Part shown: piece by piece, positions 20,988 to 27,006 of the stretch | How the letters are laid out: each line of letters begins with the position of its first letter | Numbering within the stretch: the stretch's first letter is position 1 | Source of the DNA: Parabacteroides gordonii MS-1 = DSM 23371 | Lineage (GTDB): Bacteria > Bacteroidota > Bacteroidia > Bacteroidales > Tannerellaceae | Assembly (NCBI RefSeq): GCF_000969825.1 | Contig: NZ_KQ033919.1 | Coordinates: forward strand, 2,283,088 to 2,347,087 | Reading direction: 5' to 3' | Length of the DNA stretch: 64,000 nucleotides | The notes under the pieces: model-generated | What the model saw: only the letters and a program-made list of their open reading frames with translations | Told to the model about the DNA's origin: nothing | The model's database searches: none | Program-made: the position numbers and the translations under genes

Positions 20988-22730
20988 TTATTCGCTTATG
21001 CTAACTTTATAGCTCTGGTCATTCAAACGGACAACGTAAATGCCCTGCGGCAATTGCATTTGGGTATCACCGGAGATCATGGCTGATTTTATCAGCCGGC
21101 CTTGCATATTAAATACACTTACCTTAACAGGGGCTTCCGGTTGGATATACAAAACTCCACCTGTCACATAGACCTTTGAGCCCGTTATTATCTTTTCGTT
21201 GGCAGTTGCCGTATTCTTAACAATGCCAGTGATTTTGATAACCATATCCGCAGTTACCCTATCTGTTACGTAATTCATATCGGCATCCGGTTCCAGCGTC
21301 TTGTCACCAACGGTAACAACCGGTTTCGACTCGTTGTATTCTTCATCCAATGTCAATGAGAAGCGGAAACGTTCGCCATCTTCTATTTTAGATATACCTT
21401 CACTCGGCGTGGTTGTTGCACCTGTCAGGAGAGGAAGCGTTACATTGCGCAAGGCTTGAAGAGCCGGGTAATCATCTTTTCTCAATTGCCATGTAAGAGC
21501 TCCTTCCGGCAGGTTTTTATTGAGTTCACCAACAAACTCCTGGCTCTTCATCGATGCTTCGCTCGCTTCGTCTTTAGAATAATAACAATTGCTAATCGTT
21601 GATTCTCCTGTTGATAAACAGCAAGTAGGGTCAACGTAAGATCCAGTAATAGCTTGACTCTTTAATGCTGGAACAACACTCCAACTATTTGAAAGTATAC
21701 TCTTAGCAAGTAAACCAGGAACTATCCCTGCTGTATATGCATAAGATGTACCACCCTCCTGTTTGTTTTCCACTTTCGCGCTAAGCGACTCACCTCGACT
21801 ACCACAGTTCAGGATTTTACTACTGTTATTGGCATAAGATGCGATTCCGCCAGCATAAGCAACTAACTGGTCGGCATCTCCGGAACCATAACTTTCTATC
21901 TTACCATAGCTAATGCAATTAATAACTTTCGTACCATTGTCCACAATTCCGACAATACCAGAAGCCTCTGCGGTGCTGGAACCGCCTGTCGAAATAACTT
22001 CACTACGAAAACTGCCATAACTACGACAATTGTCAATCGTACTATTATATGCTTTAGCAACCAAACCAACAACATCACACCAAGCATTCTTACCGGTTAT
22101 CCGTACGGAATAAGTACCTTCTGTCGTGCAATTGATTATTTGACCATCCCAAAAATTACCAGCTAACCCTGCTACCGACCAACTGATGCTGACAGCTTTC
22201 CCTTCGATATCGATTTTTGTATCAACCATGCGGATGTTTTTAAGGATAGCCCCTTTCGAGTTATTGAATAAAGCTGTAGAGACACTATGATTAGCCTCAT
22301 CTTCATAAATCCTACTAAATTTTAAATTACAATTCTTTATGGCGTACCCGTCGCCATCATACGTCCCTGCAAACCATGCACCATTACCGATCCTAGGCAT
22401 ATCTTCTCCATCCTCATAAACGATATCAGCAATTTGCTTAAAATAAACCCCTTCCAATATTTTAGGCCAATTACCGGAAGCATCCTTAGCCAATGTCTCA
22501 AGACTACTTAAATGTTCCTTGGTAGCAATCAGATAGGGATCCGCTTCCGTACCGGAACCTCCGGCGAAAGAGGAAGCATCTGCCTTGGTTGTGATTTGTG
22601 GAATGGCGCTGTCAAACATGACGGGTTCACCAAGTTTCATTGACGCAAATGCACCTGCATTTGTCTGTGCCTGGGCACAATAGATACCCAATACAAGGGT
22701 AACAAGCGTTAAAATCTTTTTCATACGCAT
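20988..22730 (-). CDS. Secreted repeat (GLUG-like) surface protein with Por-like C-terminal domain
   Basis: 580 residues with a signal peptide (MKKILTLVTLVLGIYCAQAQ; an upstream MR gives a start two codons earlier). Residues about 55-380 hold the GSGTEADPYLIATKEHL motif and repeated short units such as INCTTEGTYS, IDNCRSYGSF, INCISYGKIES and LNCGSRGES, the pattern of GLUG-type or right-handed beta-helix adhesins. A domain around 440-510 precedes a C-terminal segment (VSVFNMQGRLIKSA, then LPQGIYVVRLNDQ) like the type IX secretion sorting domains or Parabacteroides DUF6383. Probably a surface or secreted adhesin. It is the last gene of a minus-strand series beginning with the HU-like gene at 24890 and may be under the same switch. 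No enzymatic residues recognised. Confidence 0.75.
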   Translation of the reverse strand: MRMKKILTLVTLVLGIYCAQAQTNAGAFASMKLGEPVMFDSAIPQITTKADASSFAGGSGTEADPYLIATKEHLSSLETLAKDASGNWPKILEGVYFKQIADIVYEDGEDMPRIGNGAWFAGTYDGDGYAIKNCNLKFSRIYEDEANHSVSTALFNNSKGAILKNIRMVDTKIDIEGKAVSISWSVAGLAGNFWDGQIINCTTEGTYSVRITGKNAWCDVVGLVAKAYNSTIDNCRSYGSFRSEVISTGGSSTAEASGIVGIVDNGTKVINCISYGKIESYGSGDADQLVAYAGGIASYANNSSKILNCGSRGESLSAKVENKQEGGTSYAYTAGIVPGLLAKSILSNSWSVVPALKSQAITGSYVDPTCCLSTGESTISNCYYSKDEASEASMKSQEFVGELNKNLPEGALTWQLRKDDYPALQALRNVTLPLLTGATTTPSEGISKIEDGERFRFSLTLDEEYNESKPVVTVGDKTLEPDADMNYVTDRVTADMVIKITGIVKNTATANEKIITGSKVYVTGGVLYIQPEAPVKVSVFNMQGRLIKSAMISGDTQMQLPQGIYVVRLNDQSYKVSISE

Positions 22731-22807
22731 TAATATATTTGTTGATAAAATAGAGTTAGGCCAACTGTTGAGTGTGGTCTGTTTTAGTAGTTAACATATT
22801 CTAAGTG

Positions 22808-22838
22808 CACCGTCTAACCAATGTTGGTTAGACAGGCT
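22808..22838 (-). repeat. Intercistronic palindrome, copy 1
   Basis: 22812-22833 is a perfect dyad: GTCTAACCAA, TG, TTGGTTAGAC. The surrounding 31 bases (starting CACCGTCTAACCAA) recur with about four changes at 24031-24061. In both places the element lies 70-80 bp upstream of a minus-strand gene start. Likely an mRNA hairpin or a protein site shared by the two genes. Confidence 0.55.
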
Positions 22839-22854
22839 GCAAAAAACTATATAA

Positions 22855-23967
22855 TCAGATTCTTACTTTAACTATCTTTTGGTTGATACGGATCAGGTAG
22901 ATACCTGACTGCAGGTTTGATATTTGTGCTGATCCATTAACGAACGCATTATAATAACATCCACCAAGGATCGAATATACTTGAACTGACATATTTTCCG
23001 GAGTTTCTACATAGAGAATACCATCTTGACTATAAACACGTACATTCTCCAATACAGGAGTTTCCACCTGAGTAGATGAGTTTTCCGGGTAATAGGTATA
23101 AGTCTGACTTGTAACTACCCATTCCGGAGTTTCATTATCCCAATAGTTTTTTACTTTGACAGTAGTAGTTACCGGATTTTCCCCTTCCGTCTCAGTCAAT
23201 GTCTCTGATAAAAGAGCCAAATCTGCGTCTGCAGAAAATCGTTGATAAAGTTGCATTAATTCACTGTTATCCGTATAACTATATATCCATTTCCCTAATT
23301 GATATGTGGCATTATCCAAGCTTGTTTCAGACAACCGTCCCTGATCATCATAAGTATATGTCAGCTTATTATTAAACACCCATTCGTCTTTATCTGCTTC
23401 ATTACTATTTTTGTTATAGTTTATATAACTCTTTATTTGTCCGTTTTCCATATATTCCGTTTCTATTTTTCCCCGAATAACAGTAAAAGCTGTTTCACTT
23501 GTCCGGGTTGTATCAACATATATTTCAACACCATTCAATCCATTATATGTATACTCTTCCACACGATGACGATTAACCAACAGATCTCTCAAATCATAAC
23601 TCAAAATATGCCCCTGATCATTATATGTAGAAGTTATCTTTATTGAATCATTCCAGACTTTACCATCCTATTTCTGAGTAATGACCGCTGTTTTATTACC
23701 AGCTGCATCATAGGTATTAGATGTTTTAGAAAAATTAGTCCAATCCTTTGACAAAGCATTCCAGGTATACACCAATTCTTCCGACACCTTTTTATCGTCA
23801 GTATACGTATAAACCGTTTTGGATACATTCTCCGCAGCATTGCGTTGGATAATGCTATCGACATTTTGTGTAGCATTACTTTTTACAAGAGGATTACTGA
23901 CTTGTGCATTTACAGTTGAATTAAAAGCTAATCCAATAGCTACTAGTGCGATGTAATAATGTTTCAT
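22855..23967 (-). pseudogene. Secreted YD-repeat-like protein interrupted by an in-frame amber codon
   Basis: One reading frame from ATG at 23967 to the stop at 22855 (371 codons), broken only by TAG at 23670-23668 (codon 100). Residues 1-22 are a signal peptide (MKHYYIALVAIGLAFNSTVNA). Before the stop: VYTYTDDKKVSEELVYTWN and TSNTYDAAGNKTAVITQK; after it: DGKVWNDSIKITSTYNDQGH and further TYDDQGRLSETS units, so the same repeat pattern continues across the stop. The end (PENMSVQVYSILGG, then LQSGIYLIRINQKIV) is a Por-like sorting domain. A CAG-to-TAG change would explain the stop. The part after it has no good start of its own (TTG at 23604). Unless the amber is read through, a 99-residue fragment is made. 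Confidence 0.72.
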
Positions 23968-24030
23968 GATAAATTTACTTGATTATTAAATGAAATATAT
24001 TCTCTTTCTTGTTTTAACATTCTTTAGGCG

Positions 24031-24120
24031 CACCGTCTAACCAACGTAGGTTAGGCAGGCTAAGTGCCTTTAGTGAGTGTGTGTAAGTGCCGTTGGTTAG
24101 ACAGTCTATCCAACGGCACT
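24031..24120 (-). repeat. Intercistronic palindromes, copy 2 plus a large hairpin
   Basis: 24035-24056 is an imperfect dyad (GTCTAACCAACG / TAGGTTAGGC) matching the element at 22808-22838. Next to it, 24086-24120 is a 35-bp hairpin with arms AGTGCCGTTGGTTAGAC and GTCTATCCAACGGCACT (one mismatch, single-base loop). On the minus strand the hairpin follows the HU-like gene, so it may be its terminator or an mRNA-stabilising structure. Confidence 0.55.
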
Positions 24121-24128
24121 GAGGAAGA

Positions 24129-24890
24129 CTATTCAATAACAGGACGGTCATCCTCACCACCGCCACCCGGTTTTTCGCCTACATAAAGCAGTACCGGGAA
24201 CGTATAGGTACGTGGTTCTTTTACCAGCTTGTTGCCGGCAGCAGACTGGGTAACAATGCTTAGCGTGTATTCGCCGTCTTCAAGAGCAGGCAACATTACA
24301 GTCAGTTCAGAAGGATTGTTATGAACTAGCAACGGGCTTTTCTGTGCCGTGCCGCCCGCCTTGGTGAAGAAAACACCTATACCGGCATCGTCGCCGGCTA
24401 CTTTGATGTTCGATCCGGAAATAACGACAGGAGCAGCAGAAGTGAGTTGTGTGTTCATCTCGCCGGTCGTAGAGTCGATAATCGAGTTGATGACCGGGCC
24501 GGTGACGGCGGGACGGGTATCTATCTCTACGTTCTTCAACGTATCACGCAGCAGTTTAGCGGGTACATAGCTGGCTGTGAGTTTGTTTTTAGCAGGATCG
24601 AAAGCGGCTTTTTCGCCTTCGAAAGGGCCTGTGATGGTTGCCATATACTGGCCTACACCGTCAACGACACTTTTACCTTCCGCAATAGCGGTTACCTTTT
24701 CCTGATCGCCCATCCCCAGGATGTATTCGATCGTATCCAGTCGCAGTTCGGAACCACGAGCCAGGATGCGTTCGGCGATTTGCTTGTTACGTACTGTTCC
24801 GGTTATACGGGGCTTCGCTGTGTAATCGCCTTTACGCTCGGTAACGGCATTGTCGTAAAGATCGGCAGTTAAAATGATTTTTTCAGCCAT
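24129..24890 (-). CDS. HU-like DNA-binding domain protein with DUF4469 Ig-like domain
   Basis: 253 residues, no signal peptide. The N-terminal 120 residues resemble the Bacteroidales HU-type DNA-binding domain (starting MAEKIILTADLYDNAVTE, then RNKQIAERILARGSEL and the YVPAKLLRDTLKNVEI end). The C-terminal part (about 135-240, APVVISGSNIKVAGDDAGIG, then ELTVMLPALEDGEYTLSI) is a beta-sandwich of the DUF4469 type. Proteins with this architecture (HU-HIG group) are often found beside site-specific recombinases in this order. It begins 55 bp from the left arm of the invertible segment at 24945-25370, so it is the first gene that segment would drive. Role unknown; a nucleoid or regulatory role is inferred. 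Confidence 0.8.
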   Translation of the reverse strand: MAEKIILTADLYDNAVTERKGDYTAKPRITGTVRNKQIAERILARGSELRLDTIEYILGMGDQEKVTAIAEGKSVVDGVGQYMATITGPFEGEKAAFDPAKNKLTASYVPAKLLRDTLKNVEIDTRPAVTGPVINSIIDSTTGEMNTQLTSAAPVVISGSNIKVAGDDAGIGVFFTKAGGTAQKSPLLVHNNPSELTVMLPALEDGEYTLSIVTQSAAGNKLVKEPRTYTFPVLLYVGEKPGGGGEDDRPVIE

Positions 24891-24944
24891 AATACTTTGA
24901 ATTATACCCGCTGGTTGGGCAGGGAGTTACCTTTGATACTTAAA

Positions 24945-25370
24945 CCTTATTTGTGAAATAAGGGTCGGTTTATCTTAGGGTTTAATATTGACAGATAGTA
25001 ACTTACTCCCCTCTGGAGAGGGGGTAGGGGGTGTGTAATTTGCCGAACTAAAGCACGAACTATATAGATTGAGCGGATTTTATCTGTGATTTTCTATCTG
25101 GATAGTCTTTATTTGAAGCTTTAACACACCCCCTGCCCCCTCTCCAGAGGGGAAAAGTTACCCTCCGCCCCACTATGCCCATACCCCACGAAAAACCGCC
25201 TGGATTCAGTCTTTTTAGCGAAATCGTCCCCCACCCACCTAAATATAAGCAGACAAGTTTGTTTTGTTTAAAAGAAAATACATATCTTTGCCCCGTTCCC
25301 ACACTAGTACAAGCCGTGATTTTCAAGATTGGCTTCAAAGGGGGCAACATACCTTATTTCACAAATAAGG
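24945..25370. promoter_or_regulatory. Candidate invertible promoter segment (OFF orientation)
   Basis: CCTTATTTGTGAAATAAGG at 24945-24963 is repeated in perfect inverted orientation as CCTTATTTCACAAATAAGG at 25352-25370. The arms are the same palindrome but the 3-base centre (GTG/CAC) shows the inverted order. Between them, on the plus strand, TATCTTTG (25283-25290) with TTTG at 25258-25261 forms a good -33/-7 promoter that faces the 3' end of the recombinase gene. Inversion would move the -7 box to about 25032-25025 on the minus strand, pointing at the HU-like gene. No such promoter is seen toward that gene now. A nested 28-bp inverted repeat lies at 25008-25035 and 25125-25152. These elements fill the 484-bp gap. 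Confidence 0.7.
25008..25152. repeat. Nested 28-bp GC-rich inverted repeat
   Basis: 25008-25035 (beginning CCCCTCTGGAGAGGGGGTAG) and 25125-25152 (ending CCCCCTCTCCAGAGGGG) are reverse complements with one mismatch. Each holds its own palindrome CCCCTCT-GG-AGAGGGG. The high GC differs sharply from the AT-rich surroundings. It resembles a small intergenic palindromic element rather than coding DNA. Confidence 0.7.
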
Positions 25371-25374
25371 TTCC

Positions 25375-26307
25375 TTAAGCCCTCATCCCTACCAGGCCAT
25401 CCAGTCCTTTTGTGATTATCTTATTGGCAGCATCGAGCATCGACTGATCTAGTTTTGCCAGATAGTGCCGTGTCGTGCGCTCCGACGTATGGCCGAGCAT
25501 CTGACCGATGAGGGCTACCGGTGTACCGTTACGCAGCGCTTCTGTTGCCCAGGTATGACGGAAGACATACGAGGTAAGGTGGATCGGGATGGATAACTGC
25601 TCGCCGATCTCCGTCAGATAACCGTTATACCGGTGCAAGGCACGTTTATAGGCTTCGTAAAGCTGTTCGCTGTCACCGGTTTCGGGCAATACCGGAAAGA
25701 GGTAACGGCTGGCGGGTGAAGCGTATTTATCGAGCAGTCGCTGCATACCGGGGGTGATATGGATGTGTATCAGGGTACCGGTTTTGCAGCGGTTGTACAC
25801 CAGTTCACCGTCCACAATATTCTCGCGGGTGAGGTGTGCCAGGTCGACAAACGGCATACCGCAGGCCAGGAAGGAGAAAAGACCGAAGTCTTTCGCCTGT
25901 TGCAGACCGGGATCACCGGAGACGTCGAGCCGGGCAATTTCTTCGAGCGTTTCGATACGCAGCGCACGTTTGGCGGTCTCTTCCGCCCGGAGGATGAGGT
26001 GGGCGAAAGGCGACAGACGGCCGACCGGGGCAACGCCTTCGCGCACGGCTGTGTTGCAGATGGCGCGGAGATTGCTTAGGTAGCTGTTTATCGAGTTGGT
26101 TTTCAGATGTCCACCGGCTTGCAGCCAGTAGAGGAAGCGATCGATCATACCGGGGGTGATGTCGGCAAAAGACAGTTCGGCGTTGCCGCAGAACCGCAGG
26201 AACCAGTTGGAGGAAGCCCGGTAAAGGTCGGCGGTAGCATGTTTGCCCGCCTTGCGTTTGCGTTTCACCAGCGTGTCGGTGTAGGTGAAAAAGGTTGTTG
26301 TTGTCAT
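25375..26307 (-). CDS. Tyrosine-type site-specific recombinase
   Basis: 310 residues from the ATG at 26307 (MTTTTFFTYTDTLVKRKRKA); the open frame goes further up but that part is not like the family. The N-terminal SAM-like DNA-binding domain spans about 5-95 and the catalytic domain about 110-290. Catalytic boxes: Lys in YNRCKTGTLIHI, Arg in TSYVFRHTWATEAL, His in LGHTSERTTRHYL and the Tyr nucleophile in RHYLAKLD. The first catalytic Arg, normally in RGMxFVDxAYL, is replaced by Cys149 in ACGMPFVDLAHL. Length and type match Bacteroidales recombinases that flip invertible promoters. The stop codon is 5 bp from the right arm of the inverted repeat at 24945-25370, so that segment is its likely target. 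Confidence 0.88.
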   Translation of the reverse strand: MTTTTFFTYTDTLVKRKRKAGKHATADLYRASSNWFLRFCGNAELSFADITPGMIDRFLYWLQAGGHLKTNSINSYLSNLRAICNTAVREGVAPVGRLSPFAHLILRAEETAKRALRIETLEEIARLDVSGDPGLQQAKDFGLFSFLACGMPFVDLAHLTRENIVDGELVYNRCKTGTLIHIHITPGMQRLLDKYASPASRYLFPVLPETGDSEQLYEAYKRALHRYNGYLTEIGEQLSIPIHLTSYVFRHTWATEALRNGTPVALIGQMLGHTSERTTRHYLAKLDQSMLDAANKIITKGLDGLVGMRA

Positions 26308-26424: not shown

Positions 26425-27006
26425 ATGAAAGACAAAGATGAAATCCAATTAATTCAAAACAAGATCTATGAAATAAGAGGCCGGAAGGTTATGATCGATA
26501 GCGATCTAGCTGAATTATACCAAGTCGAAACACGCGTGTTAAATCAAGCAGTAAAGCGTAATATAGATCGGTTTCCCGAAGATTTCATGTTCCAATTGAC
26601 AAGCCAGGAATGGGAAAATATGTCATCACAAATTGTGATGACATCACGTACCAAACGTCCCAAATCAGCTATTCCACTTGTTTTTACCGAACATGGTGTA
26701 GTAATGCTGTCAAGTGTACTTCGCAGTAATATAGCTGTACAAACAAGTATTCTGATAACACGTGCTTTTGTTGCTATCCGGCATTTAATAATTGATACTC
26801 CTGCAAACAAAGTACAGGAACTTCAACATGAATTGAAAGAACTAAAGGAATATATAGAAGATGTATTTACCGACTACAACGACATCAACGAAGACACCCG
26901 TATACAACTGGAACTGATCAATAAAACATTGGCAGAGCTACAGGTACAAAAGGGACTATCCGACAAGCCTCGCAATCCGGTAGGATTTGTTAAACCCAAA
27001 CAATAA
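26425..27006 (+). CDS. ORF6N domain DNA-binding protein
   Basis: 193 residues. The N-terminal domain is ORF6N, a phage/mobile-element DNA-binding module related to KilA-N: IYEIRGRKVMIDSDLAELYQ, VETRVLNQAVKRNIDRFPEDF and FTEHGVVMLSSVLRS. Residues 125-170 are a likely coiled coil (VQELQHELKELKEYIEDV). Such proteins are common cargo of Bacteroidales mobile DNA. It is divergent from the tyrosine recombinase with 117 bp between them, and closes the block that lies inside the gad locus. Function unknown; possibly a regulator of the recombinase. A hairpin terminator follows. Confidence 0.85.
   Translation: MKDKDEIQLIQNKIYEIRGRKVMIDSDLAELYQVETRVLNQAVKRNIDRFPEDFMFQLTSQEWENMSSQIVMTSRTKRPKSAIPLVFTEHGVVMLSSVLRSNIAVQTSILITRAFVAIRHLIIDTPANKVQELQHELKELKEYIEDVFTDYNDINEDTRIQLELINKTLAELQVQKGLSDKPRNPVGFVKPKQ

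Follow-up and report, generated by a model that had tools for sequence, protein, structure and literature searches.

The 64,000-nt stretch of Parabacteroides gordonii MS-1 = DSM 23371 analyzed here (contig NZ_KQ033919.1, positions 2,283,088 to 2,347,087; hereafter the window) contains a 388-bp segment (24964-25351) enclosed by an inverted repeat, with a gene-side arm at 24943-24963 and a recombinase-side arm, located by repeat search, at 25352-25372. Immediately beyond the recombinase-side arm lies, on the minus strand, the gene for a 310-aa tyrosine recombinase and presumed invertase (25375-26307, counted from ATG), assigned through Pfam matches to Phage_int_SAM_5 and Phage_integrase and through a family alignment, with its stop codon at 25375-25377 and its likely start ATG at 26307. 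On the opposite side, also on the minus strand, the first gene behind the segment (24129-24890) encodes a 253-aa protein with HU-DNA_bdg and DUF4469 Pfam domains, found in the same place in three related genomes (G012, G037 and G004). An initial annotation had read this arrangement as a promoter-inversion switch, presently OFF, built on a perfect 19-bp repeat around 388 bp. The 388-nt spacing and the perfection of the repeat hold, the arms being 21 bp long instead of 19, and the recombinase gene is indeed adjacent, its stop codon lying four bases past the 19-bp arm.

Each arm of the repeat is itself an 8-3-8 palindrome, CCTTATTT-GTG-AAATAAGG, a feature absent from the initial annotation. Because both arms are palindromic, the two sites can tell orientation solely by their asymmetric centre (GTG versus CAC). 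In the whole window no other inverted repeat reaches 19 bp within 800 bp, none of 30 first-order Markov resamplings of the window contained one of that length, and a search for the 19-bp arm allowing up to 3 mismatches returned two places in the window, both of them the arms of this repeat. Within the segment there is a second, repetitive extragenic palindromic (REP)-like inverted repeat (25007-25036 / 25124-25153; CCCCTCTGGAGAGGGGG...GGGGGTGTGT), which can still be recognised at L048 in G012 and has decayed at L049 in G037.

A single promoter match lies inside the segment, assigned by sequence match to the TTTG/TAnnTTTG pattern that we take to be the relevant consensus. Its boxes stand on the plus strand (25258-25290), with TTTG at 25258-25261 and, after a 21-nt spacer, TATCTTTG at 25283-25290, facing the recombinase and away from the HU-like gene, as had been claimed. 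Inversion would place the -7 box, by our computation, ~135 bp from the HU start codon, in agreement with the earlier estimate of ~130 bp. The 52 nt that part the HU start codon from the gene-side arm showed no TTTG/TAnnTTTG match, and a sigma-70 scan, which showed no excess over shuffles (14 versus 14.6) and served solely as a negative, listed none on the gene strand in the same 52 nt. Given this position behind a leader with no promoter match, the HU-like gene is likely controlled by the segment's promoter when the latter is turned toward it (ON).

To place this locus in its genomic context, we searched the 6.79-Mb genome (G000) with an open-centre pattern of the site, CCTTATTTnnnAAATAAGG, allowing up to 2 mismatches. 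The search returned 32 forward matches (a control pattern gave 12), 24 of which form 12 pairs, that of the window and 11 more, with starts 393-539 bp apart; the other eight are single. Every pair either overlaps the stop codon of a paralogous recombinase gene or lies no more than about 20 bp from it. The seven central bases are identical and inverted in 12/12 site pairs and direct in none, with 8 different centres among the loci, and random dealing of partners among the 12 pairs yielded a mean of 1.8 matched centres and a maximum of 8. Tyrosine recombinases require identity of the strand-exchange region; matched centres are what such an enzyme needs, and they place the sites of all 12 pairs in inverted arrangement. 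The centres also match in 47/47 cases of a wider locus set, which we do not count as evidence because those segments were chosen by exact repeats, whereas the 12 of G000 were found with an open centre. The -7 box points toward the recombinase side (OFF) in 12/12 G000 segments. With a perfect or near-perfect inverted repeat around a promoter (called by sequence match), an adjacent site-specific recombinase gene here and at all 12 pairs, and a matching core in inverted arrangement at each of them, the switch is best placed among the recombinase-linked invertible promoters (invertons) of gut Bacteroidales, a known kind.

The first genes behind the G000 switches are diverse. DUF3575 genes occupy this place at L036 and L041 (scanned) and at L037 and L040 (by visible similarity), Glycos_transf_4 enzymes at L042 (scanned) and L043-L045 (by similarity), and an HTH_18 regulator at L038, and HU/IHF genes were found by scanning at L039, where a fimbrillin gene comes next, and at L046. 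HU-type first genes thus occur at 3/12 switches. Judged from the 60 PF00216 and 25 PF14848 matches in the genome (22/25 of the latter over cut-off, overlaps kept), this probably exceeds the expectation for random genes. At L042-L045 a short conserved frame (SPxGMGLTTFV..., by eye) directly follows the gene-side arm, between the capsule switch and the first capsule gene and is a candidate leader peptide or RNA element.

A search of the order with the window recombinase at E <= 1e-60 matched 2/198 genomes, both of this genus, and a search within the genus at E <= 1e-3 matched 37/38 genomes. A contig scan with the same protein for further genomes of the species, in which near records may be missing, gave a single unrelated locus. 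An NCBIfam scan of the recombinase gave nothing over cut-off, and the sole match in a PDB sequence search was XerA (5hxy), over 61 residues. The motifs YxRxKT, R[HR]xWA and GH...Y are present in 23/23 aligned recombinases. In the window an ORF6N gene (26425-27006, plus strand) lies between the recombinase and glutaminase genes; it looks inserted, since glutaminase adjoins the recombinase in the open reading frame (ORF) tables of G012 and G037.

To investigate the orientation of such segments across the genus, we compiled 66 recombinase loci from 22 genomes, including the window and drawn mostly from the top of the recombinase matches listed. At 55 of the 66, an exact inverted repeat, 12 bp or longer, starts within about 140 bp of the end of the recombinase match; of the 11 loci with no repeat pair, five are at contig ends (within about 170 bp), and for the other six about 1 kb was available. 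Two pairs of closely related loci carry their segments in opposite orientations. The recombinases of L051 (G023, ON) and L052 (G004, OFF) are identical at 282/299 positions, and the two loci have the leader and the start of the HU/DUF4469 gene in common, the L051 contig ending inside that gene. Their inner 236 bp align at 189/224 identical positions when one is reversed (score 148, versus 14.5 in the same orientation and a maximum of 21 in 100 shuffles). Likewise, the recombinases of L111 (G004) and L112 (G005) are identical at 277/284 positions and their segments at 363/444 when one is reversed (score 273 versus 34.5; shuffles reach at most 22.5). For L051/L052 and L111/L112, blastn aligns both flanks on the same strand (85-88% and 97% identical), with the segment aligning on the opposite strand. 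A segment of the same make-up as that of the window thus occurs in both orientations in two other species, G023 and G004. The initial annotation had held that its proposal would fall if no related genome carried the reverse orientation; opposite orientations of a same-make-up switch across species, together with the 11 paralogous loci, support its reading of an invertible promoter beside a tyrosine recombinase, presently OFF. In L112 the recombinase-side arm is 49 bp long and holds the palindrome twice, and two loci with more distant recombinase paralogs, L128 and L130, carry palindromes of a different sequence (TTCTGTCTCTTGGTAAGAGACGGAAC), spaced 428 and 440 bp, and represent a second site class.

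Orientation was called for segments of at least 250 bp (51 of the 55, four shorter ones being omitted) from a TAnnTTTG box located 40-140 bp from an arm and facing it. The call gave 37 OFF, 2 ON, 1 both and 11 none, and resampled segments gave 3.4 OFF and 3.9 ON; the 51 segments are not independent, comprising paralogs and one exact duplicate pair (L120/L121). Orientation is therefore biased toward OFF, in 37/51 segments of the genus and in 12/12 of those in G000.

Beyond the HU-like gene, folding and repeat search located strong hairpins on the minus strand (24032-24120). These are followed, on the same strand, by two same-frame ORFs of 99 and 249 aa (22855-23967), the second with a type IX secretion system (T9SS)-type tail below cut-off (22.4 versus 23 bits), and by the gene for a 580-aa protein (20988-22730) with a T9SS type A sorting domain (30.5 versus 23 bits) and a DUF6383 match below cut-off (22.6 versus 23.7). 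A TAG at 23670-23668 parts the two ORFs, for which a broken gene and stop read-through are the candidate explanations; in G012 and G037 nothing comparable to 22855-23967 separates the HU gene from that for the DUF6383 protein. There the next gene after HU encodes the counterpart of the 580-aa protein, 574-575 aa long, in which DUF6383 and the T9SS tail both score over cut-off; in G004 it encodes a 1166-aa LRR_5 protein with DUF6383 below cut-off. In G001 the leader and an HU-like start with no long HU frame (by eye) precede a 1295-aa DUF6383/pectate-lyase-like protein, the HU gene being apparently broken, and in G032 a TonB-dependent receptor takes that place. Copies of a 48-nt element, 83% alike, occur at 22791-22838 and 24014-24061 and form a TCTAACCAA...GGTTAGA-type hairpin behind consecutive genes.

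Taken together, these observations make it very probable that the 388-bp segment is a site-specific invertible promoter flipped by the adjacent tyrosine recombinase. The enzyme would bind both palindromic 19-21 bp sites, and strand exchange within their matching asymmetric centres would flip the segment. As assembled, with the segment OFF, the promoter would, if active, be directed toward the 3' end of the recombinase gene, in antisense. In the ON orientation it would read through the 52-nt constant leader, with its conserved hairpin, into the HU/DUF4469 gene, and transcription would probably continue into the secreted DUF6383/T9SS-tail protein or proteins. The initial annotation had extended promoter control over 24890-20988. 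For the HU-like gene this agrees with its position; for the surface genes out to 20988 the conserved pairing of HU and DUF6383-type genes makes control by the switch plausible, although strong hairpins stand between the HU-like gene and the next.

Several observations weigh against this interpretation. L051 and L052, the flipped pair, stand further from the window (recombinases 52-53% identical, the HU protein of G004 46%) and are not syntenic with it, the upstream neighbours differing both from those of the window and from each other. The loci that are syntenic with the window, in G012 and G037, with glutamate decarboxylase and glutaminase genes upstream and recombinases identical at 222/308 and 223/309 positions (72%), carry the segment OFF, in the same orientation as the window. 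The window segment may accordingly be fixed in this lineage. Because the change of orientation is seen across species and both syntenic orthologs are OFF, we infer, rather than observe, that this very segment flips in P. gordonii. In addition, 6/61 adequate loci have no repeat pair, so that the association of repeat and recombinase is not universal in more distant paralogs; read-through past the HU gene may be halted or reduced by the hairpins that follow it (-43 to -69 kcal/mol at four folded loci); and the first catalytic Arg, whose position we presume from the XerD motif, is absent from its usual place in 23/23 aligned recombinases (Pro/Ala/Thr in GMPFVDL), which therefore depart from the canonical catalytic set of tyrosine recombinases.

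The same observations bear on other explanations of the locus. The arms can each fold as a hairpin (-5.6 to -7.3 kcal/mol in the window) and could be transcription terminators or binding sites around a fixed promoter that never flips, as the OFF state of all 12 G000 segments, of 37/51 segments in the genus (with 2 ON) and of both syntenic orthologs would allow. We regard this as highly improbable, and reject the arms as simple terminators, on the two segment pairs reversed relative to conserved flanks, the site centres that match within a locus and differ between loci in 12/12 cases, the lack of any T-run seen on inspection behind the window arms, and the fact that a recombinase gene ends at every one of the 12 pairs. 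A reading of the two repeats as the borders of an inserted, integrase-bearing mobile element, suggested by the membership of the recombinase in the integrase superfamily, is extremely improbable and was likewise rejected: the recombinase gene is not enclosed by the repeats, no recombinase-like ORF is present in the 388 bp, and the same kind of segment is found in both orientations between conserved flanks in relatives.

More weight attaches to two explanations that accept a working switch. Twelve related enzymes and very similar site arms coexist in one genome, and the segment might be inverted in trans by another paralogous recombinase, with the linked enzyme inactive, as its missing Arg might indicate, or regulatory. 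The absence of this Arg, however, does not single out the window recombinase, being common to all 23 aligned enzymes, and on that ground we reject it as the mark of a lone inactive enzyme. Integrases of the IntCTnDOT group are described as having this Arg at a shifted position (PMC8138268, in excerpt). With the remaining motifs intact in 23/23 enzymes and each of the 12 loci keeping its own recombinase, inversion in trans appears unlikely, and the linked recombinase would be the one to perform the inversion. Alternatively, the switch could govern the HU-like gene alone, with the strong intergenic folds at the four loci stopping transcription and the secreted proteins using promoters of their own. 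We consider this a minority possibility of some substance, set against the conservation of the HU and DUF6383-type gene pair in G012 and G037, the similar order in G004, and the arrangements in G001 and G032, in which a DUF6383 protein, preceded by what seems to be a broken HU gene, and a TonB receptor appear as if the surface gene were the payload; moreover, no U-tract was seen on inspection behind the large window hairpins.

An extension of the invertible-promoter reading, which we hold to be a long shot, is a self-coupled switch: the HU-like protein made in the ON state would act on the synapse or on the other eleven switches, shifting the flipping odds of the whole family, and the OFF state would sustain itself through transcription antisense to the recombinase gene. 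Both the occurrence of HU-type first genes at 3/12 switches and the uniform OFF orientation would follow from it.

Promoter inversion of surface loci is established in related bacteria, and the present switch resembles the known systems in part. The capsule switches of Parabacteroides distasonis (APCS2/PD) are from the same genus and differ in their repeat, GCTACTYRGNRAGTAGC, and in having a NusG-like antiterminator gene first, followed by capsule genes. The first gene here encodes an HU-DNA_bdg/DUF4469 protein and not, as in an UpxY/NusG-led capsule operon, an antiterminator. Work by Fletcher from 2007 is said to have placed surface proteins, the phase-variable glycoproteins of P. distasonis, under invertible promoters. 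The Escherichia coli fim switch, in which a tyrosine enzyme likewise inverts a segment, has two recombinases (FimB/FimE) and short repeats, unlike the window. FimB, a tyrosine integrase, inverts the 314-bp fimS (PMC9993118, in excerpt). In Bacteroides fragilis a single serine-type master invertase, Mpi, acts on at least 13 regions (according to the part of PMC5903667 available). Surface loci are inverted there too, but the window enzyme is of the Phage_integrase and Phage_int_SAM_5 type, and in its family a tyrosine enzyme stands beside each site pair. The Bacteroides thetaiotaomicron S-layer switch (BT1927 family) also works by promoter inversion, with a different repeat sequence and without the HU/DUF4469 first gene of the window; its protein is made by about 1 in 1,000 cells, a rare ON state (PMC12548429, as far as the excerpt goes). 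In the nearest described systems the sites are palindromic as well and an integrase is linked to them, and the repeat sequences differ (PMC12118408, excerpted text). Limited searches of open-licence literature, covering the best 10-20 papers of each listing, did not bring up the window's site family with an HU/DUF4469 first gene, which may well be already described; DUF4469 by name gave 0 hits, and the phrase 'HU family DNA-binding' was absent from the 10 papers listed of 30. At least 12 promoter segments make up the G000 family; each segment has a recombinase to itself, the palindromic sites are very similar, every segment is OFF as assembled, and some precede HU-type DNA-binding genes that lead surface genes. 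Such a family allows one to ask how a dozen related recombinases stay with their own sites, and the natural ON/OFF pair L051/L052 provides a ready test system.

Outside the segment, the leader that runs from the gene-side arm to the HU start contains a conserved element (GGnAACGnC...ACCA...; 24894-24937, minus strand) with a 5-bp hairpin, captured in a model (R1) and by pair counts. In eight sequences, the same from which the structure was derived, 92.5% of cells pair and three pairs are changed on both sides. The covariation score was reached by 1/500 shuffles and slid versions scored far lower; the weaker measures, both-side changes and further pair types, were reached by 23/500 and 133/500 shuffles. 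Rfam gave 0 matches in the window at the gathering threshold, and an NCBIfam scan of the HU protein gave no match. Scoring at most 150 candidates per genome, the leader model found 13 places in 11/38 genomes at E <= 0.001: the eight training sequences, two further copies at G023 contig ends and three new ones (G013, G008 and G017). Seven of the eight training rows lie behind recombinase-linked segments, and no repeat pair was found in the 700 bp before the leader of G014 (training) or G013 (new). In one contig of G023, a promoter 81% alike over 74 bp to the ON segment, with no repeat pair, lies upstream of the same leader and HU start. Among the G023 contigs concerned, L157 (C175), L147 (C178) and L158 (C7), two end in the same 127 bases that open the HU contig, one of them holding the switch and the other the repeat-free promoter behind a gene that we take to be miaA-like; two gene copies, two strains or a rearrangement are candidate explanations for the shared bases.
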